Below are positions 1,586 through 10,461 of a stretch of DNA of 64,000 nt, piece after piece. The DNA lies in contig NZ_VCNM01000001.1 of NCBI RefSeq assembly GCF_007671725.1, forward strand, positions 930,001-994,000, read 5' to 3'. This DNA is from Halorubrum depositum. GTDB lineage: Archaea; Halobacteriota; Halobacteria; Halobacteriales; Haloferacaceae. The position numbers and the translations under genes were made by a program. The notes below the pieces were generated by a model that saw only the letters and a program-made list of their open reading frames with translations, had not been told where the DNA came from and did no database searches. Positions within the stretch are counted from its first letter, which is position 1, and each line of letters starts with the position of its first letter.

Positions 1586-2737
1586 CTAGACGCGCACTTC
1601 TATCAGGAGGTCCGACTCGGGCGACTCGCCCATCGCCTCGCGCACCCGGTCCCACGAGAGGTTCGCGCGGGCGGTCACCGTCTCGGCCGCGATGGCGCCG
1701 CAGGCGTTGCCGACGAGCAGCGGCACCTGGTAGTCGCGCGGGTCGTGCGAGAACCCGCCGTCGACGACCTCGGGCTCGCGGAGGGCCGCGCCGAGGAACC
1801 CGGCCGCGAAGGCGTCGCCCGCGCCGGCCGTGTCGACCGGGTCGACGTCGAAGCCGGGGTGAGAGACGTCACCGTGGGGAGTCCGAATCGTCGCGCCCTC
1901 GTCCCCGAGCTTGATCGCGACGACGCGGTCGTCCGGCTCCCACGGGTCGATGTCGGTCGAGTCGGCCAGCGCGTCGGCCTCGCGGGCGTTTAAGAAGAGC
2001 ACGTCGGCCGCGTGGAGCGCGGCCTCGAACTCCCGGTCCCCGACGCGCCGGCCGGGGTCGAAGCTGCGGGTCGCGCCCGCCTCGCCCGCGGCGGTCGCCA
2101 GCGCGGCCGCGGTCGCCGGCTGCTGGCCCGTGAGGTGGAGGTGATCGGCCGCCGCGAGGGTGTCGCGGTCGAGGCCGGCCGCGGTGAACGACTCGTTGGC
2201 GCCGTCGTTCGCCAACATCAGGAGCTCGCCGCCGCCGTCGACGATGACGTACTTCACCGAGGTGGGCTCGTCGGCGTCGACGAGCACCTGCCCGGGGTCG
2301 ACACCGGCGCTCGCGAGCTCGCGGAGCGCGAGCGCGCCCGACTCGTCGCCGCCGACGCTCCCGTAGACGACGGACTGGCCGCCGAGGTCGACGAGGCCGA
2401 CCGCGACGTTCGCGGCGCTGCCGCCGCCGGACTGCTCGAGCCGCTCGATCCGCGTCTCGCCGTCGGGCTCCGGCAGCCGGTCGACGTGGATCGTCACGTC
2501 CCAGTTGATGTGGCCCGCGGTGACCACCTTCGGCGCGCGGCTCGACTCCTCGGGCGAGAGGTCGGGGTCCTCGTCGACGGGCTCGGAGGCGTCGGCGGAT
2601 TCGGTATCCGCCGACTCCCACTCGGACACCTCCTCGTCCCACTCCGCGACCTCCTCCTCCCAGTCCTCGGTCCCGTCCCCGATCGTTGCTCCGTCCCCGT
2701 CCGTCTCCCGGTCTCTGTCCCTCCCGTCCCCGCTCAT
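1586..2737 (-). CDS. PfkB-family sugar kinase, probable ribose-1-phosphate kinase
   Basis: A 383-residue ribokinase-family kinase. After about 68 acidic, low-complexity residues the PfkB fold starts at KVVTAGHINWD. The first signature is GGGSAANVAVGL and the second is DTAGAGDAFAAGFL, whose GAGD aspartate is the catalytic base. Its ATG overlaps the stop of the ribose-1,5-bisphosphate isomerase gene by four bases (ATGA), so the two are translationally coupled, and this overlap decides the start despite the long acidic extension. In halophilic archaea the PfkB enzyme of this neighbourhood phosphorylates ribose 1-phosphate to ribose 1,5-bisphosphate; this substrate is assigned from context and the published haloarchaeal nucleoside pathway, not from residues. 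A nucleoside kinase role is the main alternative. Confidence 0.85.
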   Translation of the reverse strand: MSGDGRDRDRETDGDGATIGDGTEDWEEEVAEWDEEVSEWESADTESADASEPVDEDPDLSPEESSRAPKVVTAGHINWDVTIHVDRLPEPDGETRIERLEQSGGGSAANVAVGLVDLGGQSVVYGSVGGDESGALALRELASAGVDPGQVLVDADEPTSVKYVIVDGGGELLMLANDGANESFTAAGLDRDTLAAADHLHLTGQQPATAAALATAAGEAGATRSFDPGRRVGDREFEAALHAADVLFLNAREADALADSTDIDPWEPDDRVVAIKLGDEGATIRTPHGDVSHPGFDVDPVDTAGAGDAFAAGFLGAALREPEVVDGGFSHDPRDYQVPLLVGNACGAIAAETVTARANLSWDRVREAMGESPESDLLIEVRV

Positions 2738-3705
2738 GGCTCCGCCCACGGCTCCGCGGCGCCCTCGCCGAACAGCTCCCGCATCAGCGTCACGATGCTC
2801 TCGGGCGGGAACTGCCCCTGCTCGGTGACGATCGCGTCCATGTACCGCGGCGGCGTCACGTCGAAGGCGGGGTTCTCGACGTCGATCTCGCCGATCTCCT
2901 CGCGGGCCGCGGGGTCGATCACCTCCGCCTCGTCGCGCATCTCGATCTCGACGGTGTGGCCCGTCAGCGTCTCCGGGTGGAGCTTGATCGTCTGGGCCGC
3001 GGTCATGATCGGGACACCGCGCTCGCGGGCGTTGACCGCGAGCCCCGACGTGCCGATCTTGTTGATCACGCCGCCGTCGGCCGCGATCGAGTCGGCCCCG
3101 ACGACGACGTGGTCGACCTCGTCGAGGTAGCGCCGGGCCGCGGAGTCGACGATGAGGGTCACCGGGACGCCGGCGTCGCGGAGCTGTTCCGCGGTGATGT
3201 GGCCCTGCTGGCGCGGGCGCGTCTCCTTGACGACCGCCGAGATCGACTTCCCCTGTTCGACGGCGGCCTCGATGCACGCGAGCGCGTCCGTCGAGTGGCA
3301 GTGGGTCATCACCGTGTCGCCGTCGGCGAGGCGGTTCGCGCCCACCCGCCCGAGGTCCTCCTGCGCGCGGTCGAGCTGGTCGACGAACGCCTCGCTCGCG
3401 TCGACCACGCTCCGGCGGAGCCGATCGACGTCGTCGCCCTCCATCCGCTGGAGGACGTATCGGAGGGCGTTCGGCAGCGAGACGGCCGTGGGGCGCGTCT
3501 CGCGGAGGGTCCGGGCCGCGGAACGCATCGACGCGCGGAACGCCGCCGGGTCGCTCGCGGTCGGCCCGCTCGCCGCGGCCGCGCGCGCCTGCTCGGCGAG
3601 CGCCTCCGCCGCGGCCGAGGCGATGGTCGCCGCCCCGCGGATCTCCATCGTCGCGATCGCCTCGGCGGTCTCGCGCACCGCGGCCGCCGGCTCGTGCTCG
3701 GTCAT
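2734..3705 (-). CDS. Ribose-1,5-bisphosphate isomerase (eIF2B alpha/beta/delta-like)
   Basis: A 323-residue member of the eIF2B-related isomerase family that converts ribose 1,5-bisphosphate to ribulose 1,5-bisphosphate. The N-terminal third is helical. The catalytic cysteine lies in MTHCHSTDA (Cys136) and the catalytic aspartate in VVGADSIAADGG (Asp205), both as in archaeal R15P isomerases; the GTSGLAVNARERGVP segment is also conserved. The gene leads a two-gene unit with the PfkB kinase and has its own promoter: a GTTATATAAA box on the minus strand at 3731-3740, ~28 bases before the ATG. There is no RubisCO in the window, in keeping with halophiles that send RuBP to a phosphatase and aldolase instead. 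Confidence 0.9.
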   Translation of the reverse strand: MTEHEPAAAVRETAEAIATMEIRGAATIASAAAEALAEQARAAAASGPTASDPAAFRASMRSAARTLRETRPTAVSLPNALRYVLQRMEGDDVDRLRRSVVDASEAFVDQLDRAQEDLGRVGANRLADGDTVMTHCHSTDALACIEAAVEQGKSISAVVKETRPRQQGHITAEQLRDAGVPVTLIVDSAARRYLDEVDHVVVGADSIAADGGVINKIGTSGLAVNARERGVPIMTAAQTIKLHPETLTGHTVEIEMRDEAEVIDPAAREEIGEIDVENPAFDVTPPRYMDAIVTEQGQFPPESIVTLMRELFGEGAAEPWAEP

Positions 3706-3730
3706 ACCGATCCGGTAGCCCGTCCGGATA

Positions 3731-3740
3731 TTTATATAAC
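3731..3740 (-). promoter_or_regulatory. TATA box of the R15P isomerase-kinase unit
   Basis: On the minus strand the bases read GTTATATAAA. They sit 26-35 bases before the ATG at 3705, the expected distance for a leaderless haloarchaeal transcript. The box falls in the 73-base gap after the aldolase stop, so the isomerase and kinase genes can be transcribed separately from the phosphatase and aldolase pair. Confidence 0.65.
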
Positions 3741-3778
3741 CGGGCGACCGGAGCGACCGGCGAGGCGGGCGGCCGCGG

Positions 3779-4459
3779 CTACTCCCCGTCCGCGGCCGGC
3801 TGCTGCCCGTAGCTCTCGAACCGCTCCTCGACGGTCGCCAGCTGGTCGTCGGTGAGGACGGTGGGCTCGCCGACCGCCGACGCCCGGAGGTAGAGCCGGC
3901 AGAGGTCCTCGACGTGGTGCGTGTTCTCCACGGCGGTCTCGATGTCCGGCCCGGTCACCACGAGGCCGTGGTTCGCGAGGATCGCCGCGTCGGAGCCGGC
4001 CTCGGCCATCGCGGCGACGGCGTTCGCGGCCAACTCCTCGGTCCCGTACGGCGCGTAGTCGGCGAGCGGCACCTCCCGGCCCACCGAGACGATCATGTAG
4101 TGGACCGGCGGCAGCTTCCGGCCGAGCGTCGCCATCGTCGTCGCCCACGGCGAGTGGGTGTGGACGATCGCGCCCGGGCGGTCGTGTTTGTAGATTCCCG
4201 TGTGCATCGGCACCTCGCTCGACGGCGCCATCCGGCCCGCCAGCCGCTCCCCGTCGAGCGAGACCACCGGCACGTCGTCGGCGTCGAAGGAGTCGTACGG
4301 AACGCCCGTCGGTGTCACCGCGACCGCGTCGCCGTCGCGGACGCTGAGGTTCCCGGTCCGGCCGGGCGTCAGCTCGGCGAGCGCCGGCGCGTACTCGACG
4401 ACCGACTCCCGGGCGTCGCGGAGCAGATCCGGGTCGGGATCGGTCGCGTCCCAACTCAC
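3779..4459 (-). CDS. Class II aldolase, probable ribulose-1-phosphate aldolase
   Basis: A 226-residue zinc-dependent class II (AraD/FucA-type) aldolase. Recognisable elements are the [10 protein letters not shown] phosphate-binding segment, [11 protein letters not shown] with the catalytic Glu, the [11 protein letters not shown] zinc-binding histidine pair and [10 protein letters not shown] with a further histidine ligand. The start is a GTG whose last two bases form the TGA of the upstream HAD gene (GTGA overlap), so the pair is translationally coupled. In the haloarchaeal non-carboxylating pentose bisphosphate route this aldolase cleaves ribulose 1-phosphate to dihydroxyacetone phosphate and glycolaldehyde. 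The sequence alone would also fit fuculose-1-phosphate aldolase; the neighbours favour ribulose 1-phosphate. Confidence 0.85.
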
Positions 4460-5169
4460 AGCGCCACCTCCGTCAGGTCGGCGAAGACGTCGAGGCGGTG
4501 GTCCGGACGCCGCGGTCCCCGGAGTTCGTCGTCGCTCGGCGCGTCGCCGCCGGCGACGAACAGCGCCGTGTCCATCCCGACCGCGTTCGCGCCGACGACG
4601 TCGGCCTCGACGTTGTCGCCGACCATCAGCGCCTCGCTCGGCCGGCAGTCGAACCCCGCGAGCGCGGTCGTGAAGGGGAGCGCGCTCGGCTTCTCGCGGC
4701 CCACCTCCTCGGAGGTGACGAGCCGGTCGATCCGGTCGTCGATCCCGAGCCGCGCGAGCTTCTGCAGCTGGACCCGAGTGGTGAGGTTGGTCACGACGGC
4801 GACGTCGACCCCCGCCGCCGCGAGCGCGTCGAAGACCGACTCGACGCCGTCGCACAGCTCCATCTCGGTCGCGTACCCCTCCCAGTAGGCGTCGCCGAGC
4901 GCGAGCGCGGTCGCGGCGTCTCGCTCGCCCGCGTGGCGCCGGAGCGCGCGCTTGAAGTAGATGTGCCGGTCGTGGGAGGCGGCGGTGCCGGCGGTCTCGC
5001 GCTTCGCCGCCCGCCGCGCGGTCGCGTACAGCTCGTCGAACGTCCCGCGGTCCATGTCGTACCCGCGCTCGCGGAACGCCGCGAGCGCCGCCCGCTTGCC
5101 GGCCTCGTTGCAGGGGGGGTACGGGTAGAGGGTGTCGTCGAGGTCGAAACACACCGCCTCGTAGCTCAT
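4456..5169 (-). CDS. HAD-superfamily phosphatase, probable RuBP phosphatase
   Basis: A 237-residue HAD hydrolase. Motif I is FDLDDTLYP with the nucleophile Asp9 and acid/base Asp11, motif II is the [10 protein letters not shown] threonine, motif III the lysine in [10 protein letters not shown] and motif [11 protein letters not shown]. The cap is of the small helical C1 type. It is first in the unit HAD-aldolase, with the aldolase GTG overlapping its stop. The equivalent enzyme of the haloarchaeal nucleoside pathway removes one phosphate from ribulose 1,5-bisphosphate to give ribulose 1-phosphate. A CTTAAG TATA-like box at ~5191-5196 (minus) lies about 25 bases before the ATG. HAD substrates are hard to predict, so the assignment depends on context. 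Confidence 0.8.
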
Positions 5170-5372
5170 GCCCTCACTCGACCCGGCGGCGACTTAAGCG
5201 TGGTTCGGCGCGGGCGCTCCGTCGTTTTATAACCGATACCGCGGCCATCGGGCCCGTGAACTGACCGACCGTCCGCGGCGGCCGAGGCGGGAGCCCGGCG
5301 CACCGCCGCGGGATTGCGATCGCGCCGGCTGTTCGCCACGCTCCGCAGCCGCGGGCGACCGCGACGGCCCGC

Positions 5373-6245
5373 CTACTGCTCGTTCATCGCCTCGCTGGCG
5401 ATGTTCCGGCCGCGGGAGTTGAGCGCCACCTCGCGGCGCACCCGCACCTCCTCGACCACGTCGAGGTCGACGAGCCGTTCGAACGTCTCCTCGACCGCGT
5501 CGACGTCCATCCCGAGGAACGAGGGGATCTCGAACGGCGAGACGCCGGAGTACAGCGCCATCAACACCTCCCGGTCGCGGCTGGAGAGGTCGACGTTCGT
5601 CGAACTGCGCTCCTCGCCCTTCCGGAGCCACGCCTCGACGAACCGCATCCGGTTGGGATCGCCGGCGACGTGCGTCTCGATGCTGGTGCCCTCGTCGTCG
5701 GTGTGGGACACCTCGATGACGGGCTTCTTCTCGCCGTTGACCGTGCGTTTGGCGGCGTCGAGGCCGCTGATGTCGTCGAGGTCGAACTCCACGAACGCGC
5801 CGCTTTCCAAGGCGGCGTTGAGCCCGTTCTCGTCGATCTTCACGCGGGCCTGCTCCCACTCGGTCTCCTGGACGACGCCGCCCTCGATCGCGGGGTGTTT
5901 GGCGGTCACCGTTCGCTGGTCGAGCAGGGCCCGGTAGACGTCGCGCTCGAACGACTCGTGGTCCGACGCGGCGACCAACAGCACCTGGTCGCCGAGGTCG
6001 AAGCTCACGTAGTTGGAGACGCGCGCGACCGACTGGTTGGCGTCGTGGCGCCCGCCCAGCCCCCGGAGCTCCGAGAGGGGGATCGTTCGCTTCCCGTCGT
6101 TGCCGGCCAAGATCAGCCGCCGGTTCGAGAGGAGCACTCGCCCCGGCGTCCACGAGACGTCGCTCACCTTCCGTCCCTCGCGGACGGCGACCGCGAAGCG
6201 CCCCTGGGTGTCCGTCACCTTGTACTCGCCGCCGCCGTCGGACAT
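5373..6245 (-). CDS. cheF: Taxis protein CheF
   Basis: A 290-residue CheF (DUF439) protein, the archaea-specific adaptor that links phosphorylated CheY to the archaellum switch complex. The sequence begins MSDGGGEYKVTDTQGRF and has a beta-rich first half (VLLSNRRLILAG, IPLSELRGLGG), a second related beta domain near residues 130-200, and a C-terminal winged-helix-like segment (LSSRDREVLMALYSGVSPFEIPSFLG) of about 80 residues. Its ATG directly abuts the TAA of the HEAT-repeat gene, so it is the last gene of the cheB-cheA-cheR-HEAT-cheF operon. No archaellum (fla/arl) genes are in the window. Confidence 0.92.
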   Translation of the reverse strand: MSDGGGEYKVTDTQGRFAVAVREGRKVSDVSWTPGRVLLSNRRLILAGNDGKRTIPLSELRGLGGRHDANQSVARVSNYVSFDLGDQVLLVAASDHESFERDVYRALLDQRTVTAKHPAIEGGVVQETEWEQARVKIDENGLNAALESGAFVEFDLDDISGLDAAKRTVNGEKKPVIEVSHTDDEGTSIETHVAGDPNRMRFVEAWLRKGEERSSTNVDLSSRDREVLMALYSGVSPFEIPSFLGMDVDAVEETFERLVDLDVVEEVRVRREVALNSRGRNIASEAMNEQ

Positions 6246-7457
6246 TTATGGACCCCCCGCCCGGAGCTTGGACACCGCGGAGAACACCCGCTGCCGGACC
6301 GCGGAGCTCTCGTCGTCGGTTAGCTCTTCGAGCCGGTTCAGCGTCTCCTGCCCGCCGACCTGCCCGAGCACGAACACCGCCTTTGCTCGGGCGTCCTCCG
6401 GGTGCTCGGTGCCGAGTCTGTCGAGCAGCCGGTCCTCGACGATCGGCCCGCCGAGGCTCTTGAGGCTCGTGGCCGCGAACTGAGCGGTCTGCGGGTCCTC
6501 GTCGGCGAGCGCGCCCGCGAGCGCCTCGACCGCGTCCGCCGACTCCGGCTCCGCGACGCGGCCGAGGATCCACGCCGCGTTCCGCCGCTGGCGGTCCTGC
6601 TGGCCGTCCGTGAGGATCTCGACGAGCGGCTCGACGACCGTGGCGTCGTCCGCCGACTTCAGCTCGGAGACGACGCGGTCCCGCACCGCGTGGCTCTGCT
6701 GGGTCGGCACGTTCGACAGCAGCTCGATGACCGAGTACACCGCGGCGTTGCGGACGACCGCGCTCTCGTCGCCGAGCGCCCGCGCCAGCGGCTCCACTGG
6801 CTCGGGGTTGTTCGCCTTCCCGAGCGCGCCGGCCGCGATCCGTCGGAGCGACTCGTCGCCGTCGTCGAGGAGGTCGAGCAGCGGCGAGAGCGCCCGGTCC
6901 GTCCCGACGTTTCCGAGCGCGTTCGCCGCGGCCCGCCTGACCCGCGGATCGCCGTCGTCCAGGCGCTTGGTCAGCGCCGGGACCGACCGCGGGTCCGCGA
7001 ACGTCCCGCAGGCCTGACAGGCGCGCAGCCTGACCCGCGAGTCCTCGTCGTCGAGGGCCTCGACGAGGTGTCGGAGCCCGCTCGCGTCGTCGAGTCCGCC
7101 GAGCGCGTTCGCGGCCGCCATCCGGAGCTCCGGGCGGTCGGCCTTGAGCGCGCGCGCGAACTTGCGGGCGGTGACCCACTCCGCCTCGGAGCCGCCGATG
7201 CCGGTGAGCTCTTCGAGCAGCTGTTCGAGCGCCGCCTGTCCGAGCTCGTCGAGCGCGTCGACGGCGGCCCCGCGGACCTCCGCGTCCTCGTCGCTCGTCG
7301 CCGCGCGGAGGAGCCCGTCGACCGATGCCTGGTCGTCGACGTCGCCGACCTCGCCGAGGAACTCGGCCGCCCGCCGCCGGACCGCGGCGCTGTCGCTGCT
7401 CAGCGCGTCCCTGAGCCGCTCCGCGTTCCCGTCTCGAGCGTACTGGTACAGCGACAT
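6246..7457 (-). CDS. HEAT-repeat protein of the taxis operon
   Basis: A 403-residue protein made almost wholly of PBS-lyase-type HEAT repeats, seen as ~30-residue units with recurring VRRAAANALG or LRRIAAGALG-like second helices. It has no enzymatic motif and should form a solenoid scaffold. A HEAT protein next to cheF is also present in the Halobacterium salinarum che region, where deletion affects taxis; the function here is inferred from that equivalence. The ATG shares one base with the cheR stop, and cheF begins at the base after its own stop, so translation is likely coupled. No signal peptide is visible, so it should act in the cytoplasm. Confidence 0.85.
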   Translation of the reverse strand: MSLYQYARDGNAERLRDALSSDSAAVRRRAAEFLGEVGDVDDQASVDGLLRAATSDEDAEVRGAAVDALDELGQAALEQLLEELTGIGGSEAEWVTARKFARALKADRPELRMAAANALGGLDDASGLRHLVEALDDEDSRVRLRACQACGTFADPRSVPALTKRLDDGDPRVRRAAANALGNVGTDRALSPLLDLLDDGDESLRRIAAGALGKANNPEPVEPLARALGDESAVVRNAAVYSVIELLSNVPTQQSHAVRDRVVSELKSADDATVVEPLVEILTDGQQDRQRRNAAWILGRVAEPESADAVEALAGALADEDPQTAQFAATSLKSLGGPIVEDRLLDRLGTEHPEDARAKAVFVLGQVGGQETLNRLEELTDDESSAVRQRVFSAVSKLRAGGP

Positions 7458-8260
7458 CAGACCCTCCCGAACACCCGTCGGCGCTTGTCGACCGGCTCGT
7501 ACCTGTCGGACCGGTCCGGCGGGACGCTCTCGGTCATTCCGAGCACGAGCACGCCGTCGTCGGCGAGCGACGCCTCCAGCGTGTCGAACAGCGCCCCCTT
7601 GTGGTCGACGTCGATATAGATCAGCAGGTTACGGCACAACACGACGTCGAAGGGGTCGCGCGCGCCGTCGCGGATCAGGTCGTGCGTCTCGAAGTCGACG
7701 AGCCGCCTGACCGCCGGTCGGACCCGGAAGGTGTCGCCGTCGCGCTCGACGTAGCTGTCGGGGTCCGAGAGCGGTGCCAGCTCCTCCGCGATGTCCGTCG
7801 TCCGGGTCGTGTGATAGATGCCCTCGCGGGCGTTGTCGAGCGCCTCCTCGCTGATGTCGGAGCCGAGCACCTCGATCCGCGATTCGTCGATCTCGGAGTC
7901 GTCGCAGGCCAGCATCGCGACCGAGTACGGCTCCCGGCCGTCCGCCGAGGGGGCCGACCAGACGCGGACCCGCCGCTGCTCGCTCGTCCGCTCGCGGAGC
8001 ACGCCGCGGAGCACGTCCCACATATCGGGGTTGCGGAAGAACTCCGTCACGTTGATCGTGAGCGCGTCCATCAGCGCCTCCCGCTCGTCGTCGTCCTCGC
8101 GGAGCAGGCGCTCGTACTCCGCGTGCGACTCCGTGTCGCGGCGACGCATCCGCGCCGTGATCCGCCGGTCGAGGTACGACTCGTTGTAGTAGCCGGGCTC
8201 GAACGGGACGGTGTCGTCGATCTGGCGGAGGACGCCCTCGAAGGCGGTCTCGCCGGTCAT
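7457..8260 (-). CDS. cheR: Chemoreceptor glutamate methyltransferase CheR
   Basis: A 267-residue SAM-dependent methyltransferase that methylates receptor glutamates. The N-terminal helical domain has the ITARMRRRD segment and VTEFFRNPDMW. The SAM-binding motif reads RVWSAPSADGREPYS, a variant of the usual SAG-C-xTG-EEPYS, with PSADG replacing the first glycines. VLCRNLLIYID, characteristic of CheR, lies near residue 208, and the LVLGMTES strand follows. The ATG overlaps the cheA stop by four bases. With CheB it sets the adaptation level of transducers encoded elsewhere, since no receptor gene is present in the window. Confidence 0.93.
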   Translation of the reverse strand: MTGETAFEGVLRQIDDTVPFEPGYYNESYLDRRITARMRRRDTESHAEYERLLREDDDEREALMDALTINVTEFFRNPDMWDVLRGVLRERTSEQRRVRVWSAPSADGREPYSVAMLACDDSEIDESRIEVLGSDISEEALDNAREGIYHTTRTTDIAEELAPLSDPDSYVERDGDTFRVRPAVRRLVDFETHDLIRDGARDPFDVVLCRNLLIYIDVDHKGALFDTLEASLADDGVLVLGMTESVPPDRSDRYEPVDKRRRVFGRV

Positions 8261-10461
8261 AGGCTCACCACGTCGAGGACGGCCACGACGTCGCCGTCGC
8301 CGAGGACCGCCGTACCGCTGAGCCCCGGCGTCCCCGACAGCGGGCCGTCGAGCGGTTTCACCACCACTTCCTCCTGATCGAGCACGCCGTCGCAGTGGAG
8401 CGCGACCTGGCGCGTCTCCTCGCGGATCCGCACGAGCATCCCCTCGTCGGCGACGCCGCCGTCGGTCGTCGCAGTCCCGGGATCGCCGCCCGTAGCGTCG
8501 CCGTCCGCGAGGTCGTCGCCGCCGGGACCGCCACCGCCGGGACCGCCGCCCACCCCCGACCCGGCGGCCGCGGCGCCGCTCTCCGCGAGGCGCTCGTTCA
8601 GCCGGATCACGGGGTAGAGGTCGTCCTCGTGGCGGACGATCTCGTCACCGTGGACCTCCTCCACGTCGTCCGCACGGGCGACCTCCGCGATCGACTTGAT
8701 CGGGATGCCGTACTCCGTGCCGCCGACGTCGACGAACATCACCTTCACGATGGCGACGGTGACCGGGAGTCGGAAGCGGACCGTAGTCCCCTCGCCGGGG
8801 TCGCTCTCGACCGCGACGGAGCCGTCGAGGTCGCGGGCGGTGGTCCGGACGACGTCCATCCCGACGCCGCGCCCGGAGACGTCCGTGACCTCCTCCGCGG
8901 TGGAGAAGCCGGGGTGGAAGACGAGGTCGTAGACCTCGTCGTCCGCCATCGCCTCGACCGCCTCGCGGCTCTTGACGCCCTCGTCGACCGCCTTCTCGCG
9001 GAGCTGGTCCGGGTCGAGCCCGCCGCCGTCGTCGGCGACCTCGATGATCACGTGGTCGCGCTCCCGCTCGGCCGTGAGCCGCACGTGCCCGGTCGGGTCC
9101 TTCCCGGCGGCCTCGCGCTCCTCCGGGGGCTCGATCCCGTGGTCGACCGCGTTCCGCAGGACGTGGACGAGCGGGTCGCGCATCTCCGTGAGGATCGTCC
9201 GGTCGAGCTCGACGTCGTCGCCCTCGATCTCGAAGTCGATCCGCTTGTCGAGGTCCCGCGAGACGTCTCGGACGAGCCGCGGGAACGAGTCCGACACCTG
9301 CGAGAACGGGATGAGCCGCATGTCCATCGCGGTGTCCTGCAGGCTGGAGGCGAGCTTGTCGAGCTCGTCTAACGTGTCCGACTCGGCGTCCGCCGCCTCC
9401 AGCTCGCGCCGGAGCTTGATCCGGCTCGTCACCAGCTGCTCGACGAGCCCGTACAGCTCGTCGACCTGGTCGACGTCGACGCGGATCGACTTGATCTCGT
9501 CGCGGTCGGCCTTTCCGGACGCGGAGTCCGGGCGCTCGTCGGCACCGACGTCCCCCGGATCGGTGCCGTCCGCGGAGCCCGCTTCCGGCACCTCGTCCGC
9601 GGAGGGCGCCTCCGGTTCGGCCGGCTCCCACTCGTCGCCGTCGCCGTCGGCGGCATCGGCCGCCCCGTCGACGAGCGCCGTCGCGACCGACTCGACCTGC
9701 GTGAGCGCGTCGAGCCCCTCGGCGACCACGTCGGGATCGGCGCCGGAGACGAACGCGTCGAACCCCTCGTCGTACTCGCCGTCCTCCAGCGCGTCCGGGT
9801 CCGGTACGGTGACGTGGCCGTCGAACTGCCCGTCGAGCGCCTGCAGAACGAGCGCGGCGTCGACCCCGGCCATCGCCGTCTCGCCGACCGTCACGTCGGC
9901 GTACACGACCGGGGCGTCGAGCGCCGCGGCGGCCGCGGGGAGCTTCGGGACGGAGACCTCGGAGGCGTCGTCGCCGTCGGCGGTGTCGCCGTCGGCAGCG
10001 GCGTCGTCTCTCGTCGCGTCGCCTTCCGCACTGCGATCGGCGTCGCCCGCCGAGTCGCCGTCGTCGGCCGAATCGCCGCCGACGGTTCCACGCTCCTCCA
10101 TCTCGCGGAGGCGGCGCTCCAGGTCGGAGGGATCCGTCGACACCTCGCCCGAATCGGCGATCTCCGCGACCATCGCCTCGACGGCGTCGACCCCCTCGAA
10201 GAGGAGGTCCATCAGCTCGGGCGTCACCTCGCGCTCGCCCTGCCGGACCGCGTCCAGGAGGTCCTCGAGGGCGTGTCCGAAGTCGGAGACGCCGTCGTAC
10301 CCCATCGCCGCGGCGTTCCCCTTCAGCGTGTGGGCGACGCGGAACACGTCGTCCATCGCCTCGGCGTCCTCGGGGTCGGCCTCCAGCGCGAGCAGGGCGT
10401 TGTTGAGGTCGGTGATCCCGTCCTCCGCCTCGGCGACGAACGCGGCGCGGTGGGAGTCCAT
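8257..10461 (-). CDS. cheA: Chemotaxis histidine kinase CheA
   Basis: A 734-residue CheA. Domains in order: Hpt (phospho-acceptor His44 in VAHTLKGNAAAMG), a long acidic linker (~125-165), a P2-like response-regulator-binding region (~170-260), a second acidic linker, the dimerisation helices (DELYGLVEQLVTSRIKLRREL region), the HATPase domain (N box RNAVDHGIEPP, G1 DDGGGLD, G2 GRGVGMDVV) and a CheW-like regulatory domain interrupted by a Gly-rich insertion near residues 640-660. The ATG overlaps the TGA of cheB by one base. It phosphorylates CheB and CheY; no cheY gene is seen here. Confidence 0.95.
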   Translation of the reverse strand: MDSHRAAFVAEAEDGITDLNNALLALEADPEDAEAMDDVFRVAHTLKGNAAAMGYDGVSDFGHALEDLLDAVRQGEREVTPELMDLLFEGVDAVEAMVAEIADSGEVSTDPSDLERRLREMEERGTVGGDSADDGDSAGDADRSAEGDATRDDAAADGDTADGDDASEVSVPKLPAAAAALDAPVVYADVTVGETAMAGVDAALVLQALDGQFDGHVTVPDPDALEDGEYDEGFDAFVSGADPDVVAEGLDALTQVESVATALVDGAADAADGDGDEWEPAEPEAPSADEVPEAGSADGTDPGDVGADERPDSASGKADRDEIKSIRVDVDQVDELYGLVEQLVTSRIKLRRELEAADAESDTLDELDKLASSLQDTAMDMRLIPFSQVSDSFPRLVRDVSRDLDKRIDFEIEGDDVELDRTILTEMRDPLVHVLRNAVDHGIEPPEEREAAGKDPTGHVRLTAERERDHVIIEVADDGGGLDPDQLREKAVDEGVKSREAVEAMADDEVYDLVFHPGFSTAEEVTDVSGRGVGMDVVRTTARDLDGSVAVESDPGEGTTVRFRLPVTVAIVKVMFVDVGGTEYGIPIKSIAEVARADDVEEVHGDEIVRHEDDLYPVIRLNERLAESGAAAAGSGVGGGPGGGGPGGDDLADGDATGGDPGTATTDGGVADEGMLVRIREETRQVALHCDGVLDQEEVVVKPLDGPLSGTPGLSGTAVLGDGDVVAVLDVVSL

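Follow-up and report, generated by a model that had tools for sequence, protein, structure and literature searches.

The non-carboxylating pentose bisphosphate pathway of halophilic archaea was described by Sato et al. in 2022; its reported end products are dihydroxyacetone phosphate and ethylene glycol, the latter formed by reduction of glycolaldehyde (PMC9700705). Biochemistry has been published for each of its steps, including activities on ribose 1-phosphate (R1P), ribose 1,5-bisphosphate (R15P), RuBP and ribulose 1-phosphate (Ru1P) from other haloarchaea (PMC9700705). According to the same paper, four of the pathway genes are arranged as an operon in Halorubrum lacusprofundi, Halorubrum sp. 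PV6 and H. ezzemoulense. The carboxylating pentose bisphosphate pathway of Thermococcales, and of other haloarchaea with form III RubisCO, has the same upper half (nucleoside phosphorylase, R1P kinase and R15P isomerase), although the Thermococcales kinase is ADP-dependent.

We analyzed a window of 64,000 nucleotides from Halorubrum depositum, in which the first-pass annotation had placed genes for a PfkB kinase, an R15P isomerase, a class II aldolase and a HAD phosphatase in two overlapping pairs. As shown in Table 1, the coordinates, the minus strand and the overlaps were all borne out: the cluster occupies positions 1586-5169, with 73 bp between the pairs. The phosphatase and aldolase genes overlap by 4 nt (GTGA), as do the isomerase and kinase genes (ATGA). 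Close phosphatase relatives that share this gene neighbourhood come from organisms named as Halorubrum species. Since the four-gene operon has been published for Halorubrum, the annotation correctly recognized an established cluster in an established genus; close relatives are already known to carry it, and the promoter, tail and distribution data given below are refinements.

Table 1. Features of the H. depositum cluster (window positions) and of the transporter loci in related genomes
Feature	Position	Strand	Details
R1P kinase (PfkB)	1586..2737	-	NF053626 369.4 bits, cut-off 330; PF00294 8e-46
Acidic N-terminal tail of kinase	2531..2737	-	~69 residues, with DWEEEVAEWDEEVSEWE; family model starts at residue 70
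Ribose-1,5-bisphosphate isomerase	2734..3705	-	R15P to RuBP; TIGR00511 471 bits, cut-off 314
Palindrome TACCG-N3-CGGTA	3705..3717	.	ends on isomerase start codon; read from sequence
TATA box TTATATAAATA of isomerase-kinase pair	3729-3739	-	in 73-bp gap, centre ~28 nt upstream of isomerase ATG
Ribulose-1-phosphate aldolase (class II, FucA type)	3779..4459	-	Ru1P to DHAP + glycolaldehyde; NF053831 379.7 bits, cut-off 300
Ribulose-1,5-bisphosphate 5-phosphatase (HAD)	4456..5169	-	RuBP to Ru1P; NF053830 387.1 bits, cut-off 330
Phosphatase-aldolase promoter	5192..5207	-	BRE CGAACCA + TATA-like CTTAAGT; conserved across genus
Pot-type ABC transporter	L049:2497-6687, L062:2488-6669, L064:2460-4101, L127:7387-11523, L132:7361-11503

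The four products carry PfkB, IF-2B, Aldolase_II and HAD domains, respectively, and the kinase contains the PfkB motif DTAGAGDAF. All four proteins exceeded curated equivalog cut-offs while generic models remained far under theirs, which raises each of the first-pass assignments to an equivalog-level match. The kinase scored lower against NF053626 (369 bits) than kinases from other families (up to 504 bits).

The two remaining pathway enzymes, which the first-pass annotation had listed as missing from the cluster, were both found elsewhere in the genome. Four genes of the PNP/UDP family are present. NCBIfam cannot separate two uridine-phosphorylase-like paralogues among them, both falling under the uridine-phosphorylase cut-off, and we therefore relied on orthology to the operon-borne phosphorylase of other haloarchaeal families. 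One paralogue (L001, C1:1008762-1009484) lies about 15 kb past the window, at a distance of 74 kb from the cluster. It shares 69-86% identity with the phosphorylase whose gene adjoins that of the R1P kinase at 27 of 30 kinase loci in those families, as against about 44% for the second (L003); it was accordingly identified as the orthologue of guanosine phosphorylase (Urdpase1 type). Its orthologue was present in all 29 genus genomes examined. Among the other genera of the family to which Halorubrum belongs, this phosphorylase gene was not found within several kb of that for the kinase. The glycolaldehyde reductase (C2:274170-275258) scored 669 bits against NF053832, whose cut-off is 550. With the core enzymes included, the genome thus encodes the complete six-enzyme pathway.

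A PF00016 search gave no RubisCO match in the genome (99.98% complete), the form III enzyme that defines the carboxylating pathway included; a RubisCO gene had been named beforehand as a finding that would refute the proposed route. The best match to the AMP phosphorylase model TIGR03327 reached only 35.9 bits against a cut-off of 535. The genome thus differs from the carboxylating pathway in having no RubisCO; RuBP would pass to a phosphatase and an aldolase instead. It has in common with the published non-carboxylating pathway the four enzymes and their association, both additional enzymes and the absence of RubisCO and AMP phosphorylase; there is no difference in kind, the phosphorylase gene lying at the distance given above.

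These data support a route from nucleoside ribose to DHAP and glycolaldehyde without RubisCO, as the first-pass annotation had suggested, and the cluster is very likely the four-gene core of the non-carboxylating pathway. For H. depositum itself we infer the transcription units, the physiological flux and the enzyme activities, which others have assayed in related species. R1P would arise by nucleoside phosphorolysis, with guanosine phosphorylase catalyzing the first step. The kinase of the isomerase-kinase pair would phosphorylate it with ATP to R15P, which would then be isomerized to RuBP. The products of the phosphatase-aldolase pair would dephosphorylate RuBP to Ru1P and split the latter into dihydroxyacetone phosphate and glycolaldehyde, leaving the last step to the reductase encoded away from the cluster. 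With a promoter of its own before each pair, the two halves could be expressed jointly by read-through or apart.

The distribution of these genes was analyzed in 148 genomes of the family, 30 of which belong to Halorubrum. Phosphatase, aldolase and isomerase genes were found in all 30 and the kinase gene in 29, the exception (G139) being a genome in which the kinase is broken by a contig end. RubisCO was found in none of the 30. The two pairs are consecutive, with a gap of 54-169 bp, in 26 genus genomes, and the arrangement is therefore not due to chance; in three others 1.7-4.3 kb of inserted DNA separates the pairs, and in the remaining one the cluster is distributed over different contigs. 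In genera g5, g10 and g16 phosphatase and aldolase genes lie together, far from those for isomerase and kinase. In Halorubrum sp. CBA1125 (L130:4868-6612) the kinase gene directly follows the phosphatase gene, and neither aldolase nor isomerase was detected on the short contig; this order reflects either a deletion or an assembly fault.

Only two genomes of the family sample (G016 and G040) contain both the RuBP phosphatase and a protein of the RubisCO fold. These proteins scored 496 and 508 bits against the OiaX model and 268-270 bits against that of form III RubisCO (cut-off 497), and they were dropped as exceptions to the mutual exclusion of phosphatase and RubisCO; since both remain below the OiaX cut-off of 700, we term them OiaX-like rather than OiaX. 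No genome among the 148 was found to combine the phosphatase with a confirmed form III RubisCO, 8 of the 51 RubisCO-fold matches having been classified directly. Two g15 genomes (G015:C2:385618-386235 and G039:C1:1547365-1547982) encode an aldolase above the Ru1P-aldolase cut-off together with a RubisCO-fold protein, and no RuBP phosphatase above cut-off was found in them; the aldolase may therefore have another substrate there. A divergent RubisCO-fold protein (L147:113-1576; G062:C1:1983379-1984203) falls under every curated RubisCO and RubisCO-like cut-off, in a genome with a Ru1P-aldolase-type protein and no R15P isomerase above threshold.

Analysis of the upstream regions revealed a conserved element before each pair. 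A TATA-like box, usually TTTTATAAATA, starts at -31 to -34 from the isomerase ATG in 30 of 30 Halorubrum genomes. Upstream of the phosphatase the consensus is CGtCGAAcCACgCTTAAGTC, and its TTAAG core lies at -29 or -30 from the ATG, again in 30 of 30. Between -40 and -21 conservation is about 1.5-1.6 bits per column for the phosphatase and 1.1 bits for the isomerase, compared with 0.1-0.3 bits further upstream. Leaderless transcripts account for 72% of protein-coding transcripts in Haloferax volcanii, and TTWT and CGAAA have been proposed as haloarchaeal TATA and BRE elements (PMC4983044); both sites therefore resemble leaderless promoters. The isomerase box is retained even where a transposase-like sequence (L047) or a Pot-type ABC transporter (L049, L062) has been inserted between the pairs. 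The earlier suggestion that an intergenic TATA box permits separate expression of the two halves thus gains from this footprinting, and such expression is a well-supported prediction from promoter conservation.

Two other interpretations needed to be considered. The 2022 paper drew the genes as one operon. Transcription would then start only at the promoter that precedes the phosphatase gene, and the TATA-like element ahead of the isomerase would go unused. The usually short gap between the pairs fits this prediction, as does the term operon used for the four genes (PMC9700705). However, the box before the isomerase keeps leaderless spacing in every Halorubrum genome, including those with a transposase-like or transporter insertion, and the pairs occupy distant sites in other genera. 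We consider a single promoter unlikely, and a conserved promoter before each pair in Halorubrum is where our data depart from that scheme.

The second interpretation concerns the chemistry: the cluster might serve a different sugar-phosphate route, its aldolase being of the fuculose type, its PfkB kinase and HAD phosphatase generic, and all three adjoining an eIF2B-like protein by chance. The kinase and HAD families are indeed broad, and the aldolase shares the class II fold and sequence family with L-fuculose-1-phosphate aldolase (FucA), its closest solved relatives being fuculose-phosphate aldolases. Yet it falls under the FucA cut-offs (121 vs 400 and 180 vs 264) and over that for Ru1P aldolase, in keeping with the family-specific cut-offs passed by all four proteins and the low scores of generic models. 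Among solved structures, the isomerase is closest to true ribose-1,5-bisphosphate isomerases, 5yfj (E 1.5e-87) and 3a11. Moreover, the phosphatase avoids form III RubisCO across the family sample, within the extent of direct classification given above. A different route is on this evidence highly improbable, and the non-carboxylating pathway is the reading retained here.

The palindrome next to the isomerase start codon (Table 1) is a possible operator, proposed from its sequence and position; the region from -20 to -1 that holds it has a mean conservation of 1.2-1.4 bits across the genus. The Pot-type (spermidine/putrescine-like) transporter, which consists of a substrate-binding protein, two permeases and an ATPase, lies between the cluster halves in several Halorubrum and related genomes and may possibly be linked to nucleoside or ribose uptake. 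Upstream of the H. depositum cluster (window 5373-10461) are chemotaxis genes, among them CheF, identified by Pfam, as well as open reading frames that by eye resemble HEAT-repeat, methyltransferase-like and CheA-like proteins.

The kinase has an N-terminal tail outside the published family model, variable in length and with a repeated W-E/D motif (window 2531-2737, L038-L068). In 28 genus genomes 27-123 residues precede the conserved GHIN; the frame is open throughout, strongly acidic and often contains DDWDETVAEWDREVDEWE. A late internal start of the kinase was disfavoured: in four of these genomes the tail contains no internal start codon, and its GC content by codon position (0.86/0.51/0.90) is that of coding DNA. 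For both reasons we prefer translation from the overlapping ATG, which would include the tail in the protein.

The known glycolaldehyde reductase was detected in no more than 4 of the 30 Halorubrum genomes, H. depositum included; the final step of the pathway is therefore not constant. This agrees with the published remark that the reductase may contribute to a limited extent and that there may be alternative routes (PMC9700705). We somewhat favour a model in which each half of the pathway is a module under its own regulation, with a conserved leaderless promoter, and in which most Halorubrum clear glycolaldehyde by another enzyme, the reductase being so rare while the four-gene core is universal. 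This sharpens a point raised by the 2022 paper, namely the fate of the two-carbon product where the reductase is not found. As one of few Halorubrum that encode the complete set of six enzymes, H. depositum would be a candidate for a genetic test of the whole pathway. Overall, the data from 30 genomes confirm that Halorubrum has the route for nucleoside ribose without RubisCO as a fixed trait.
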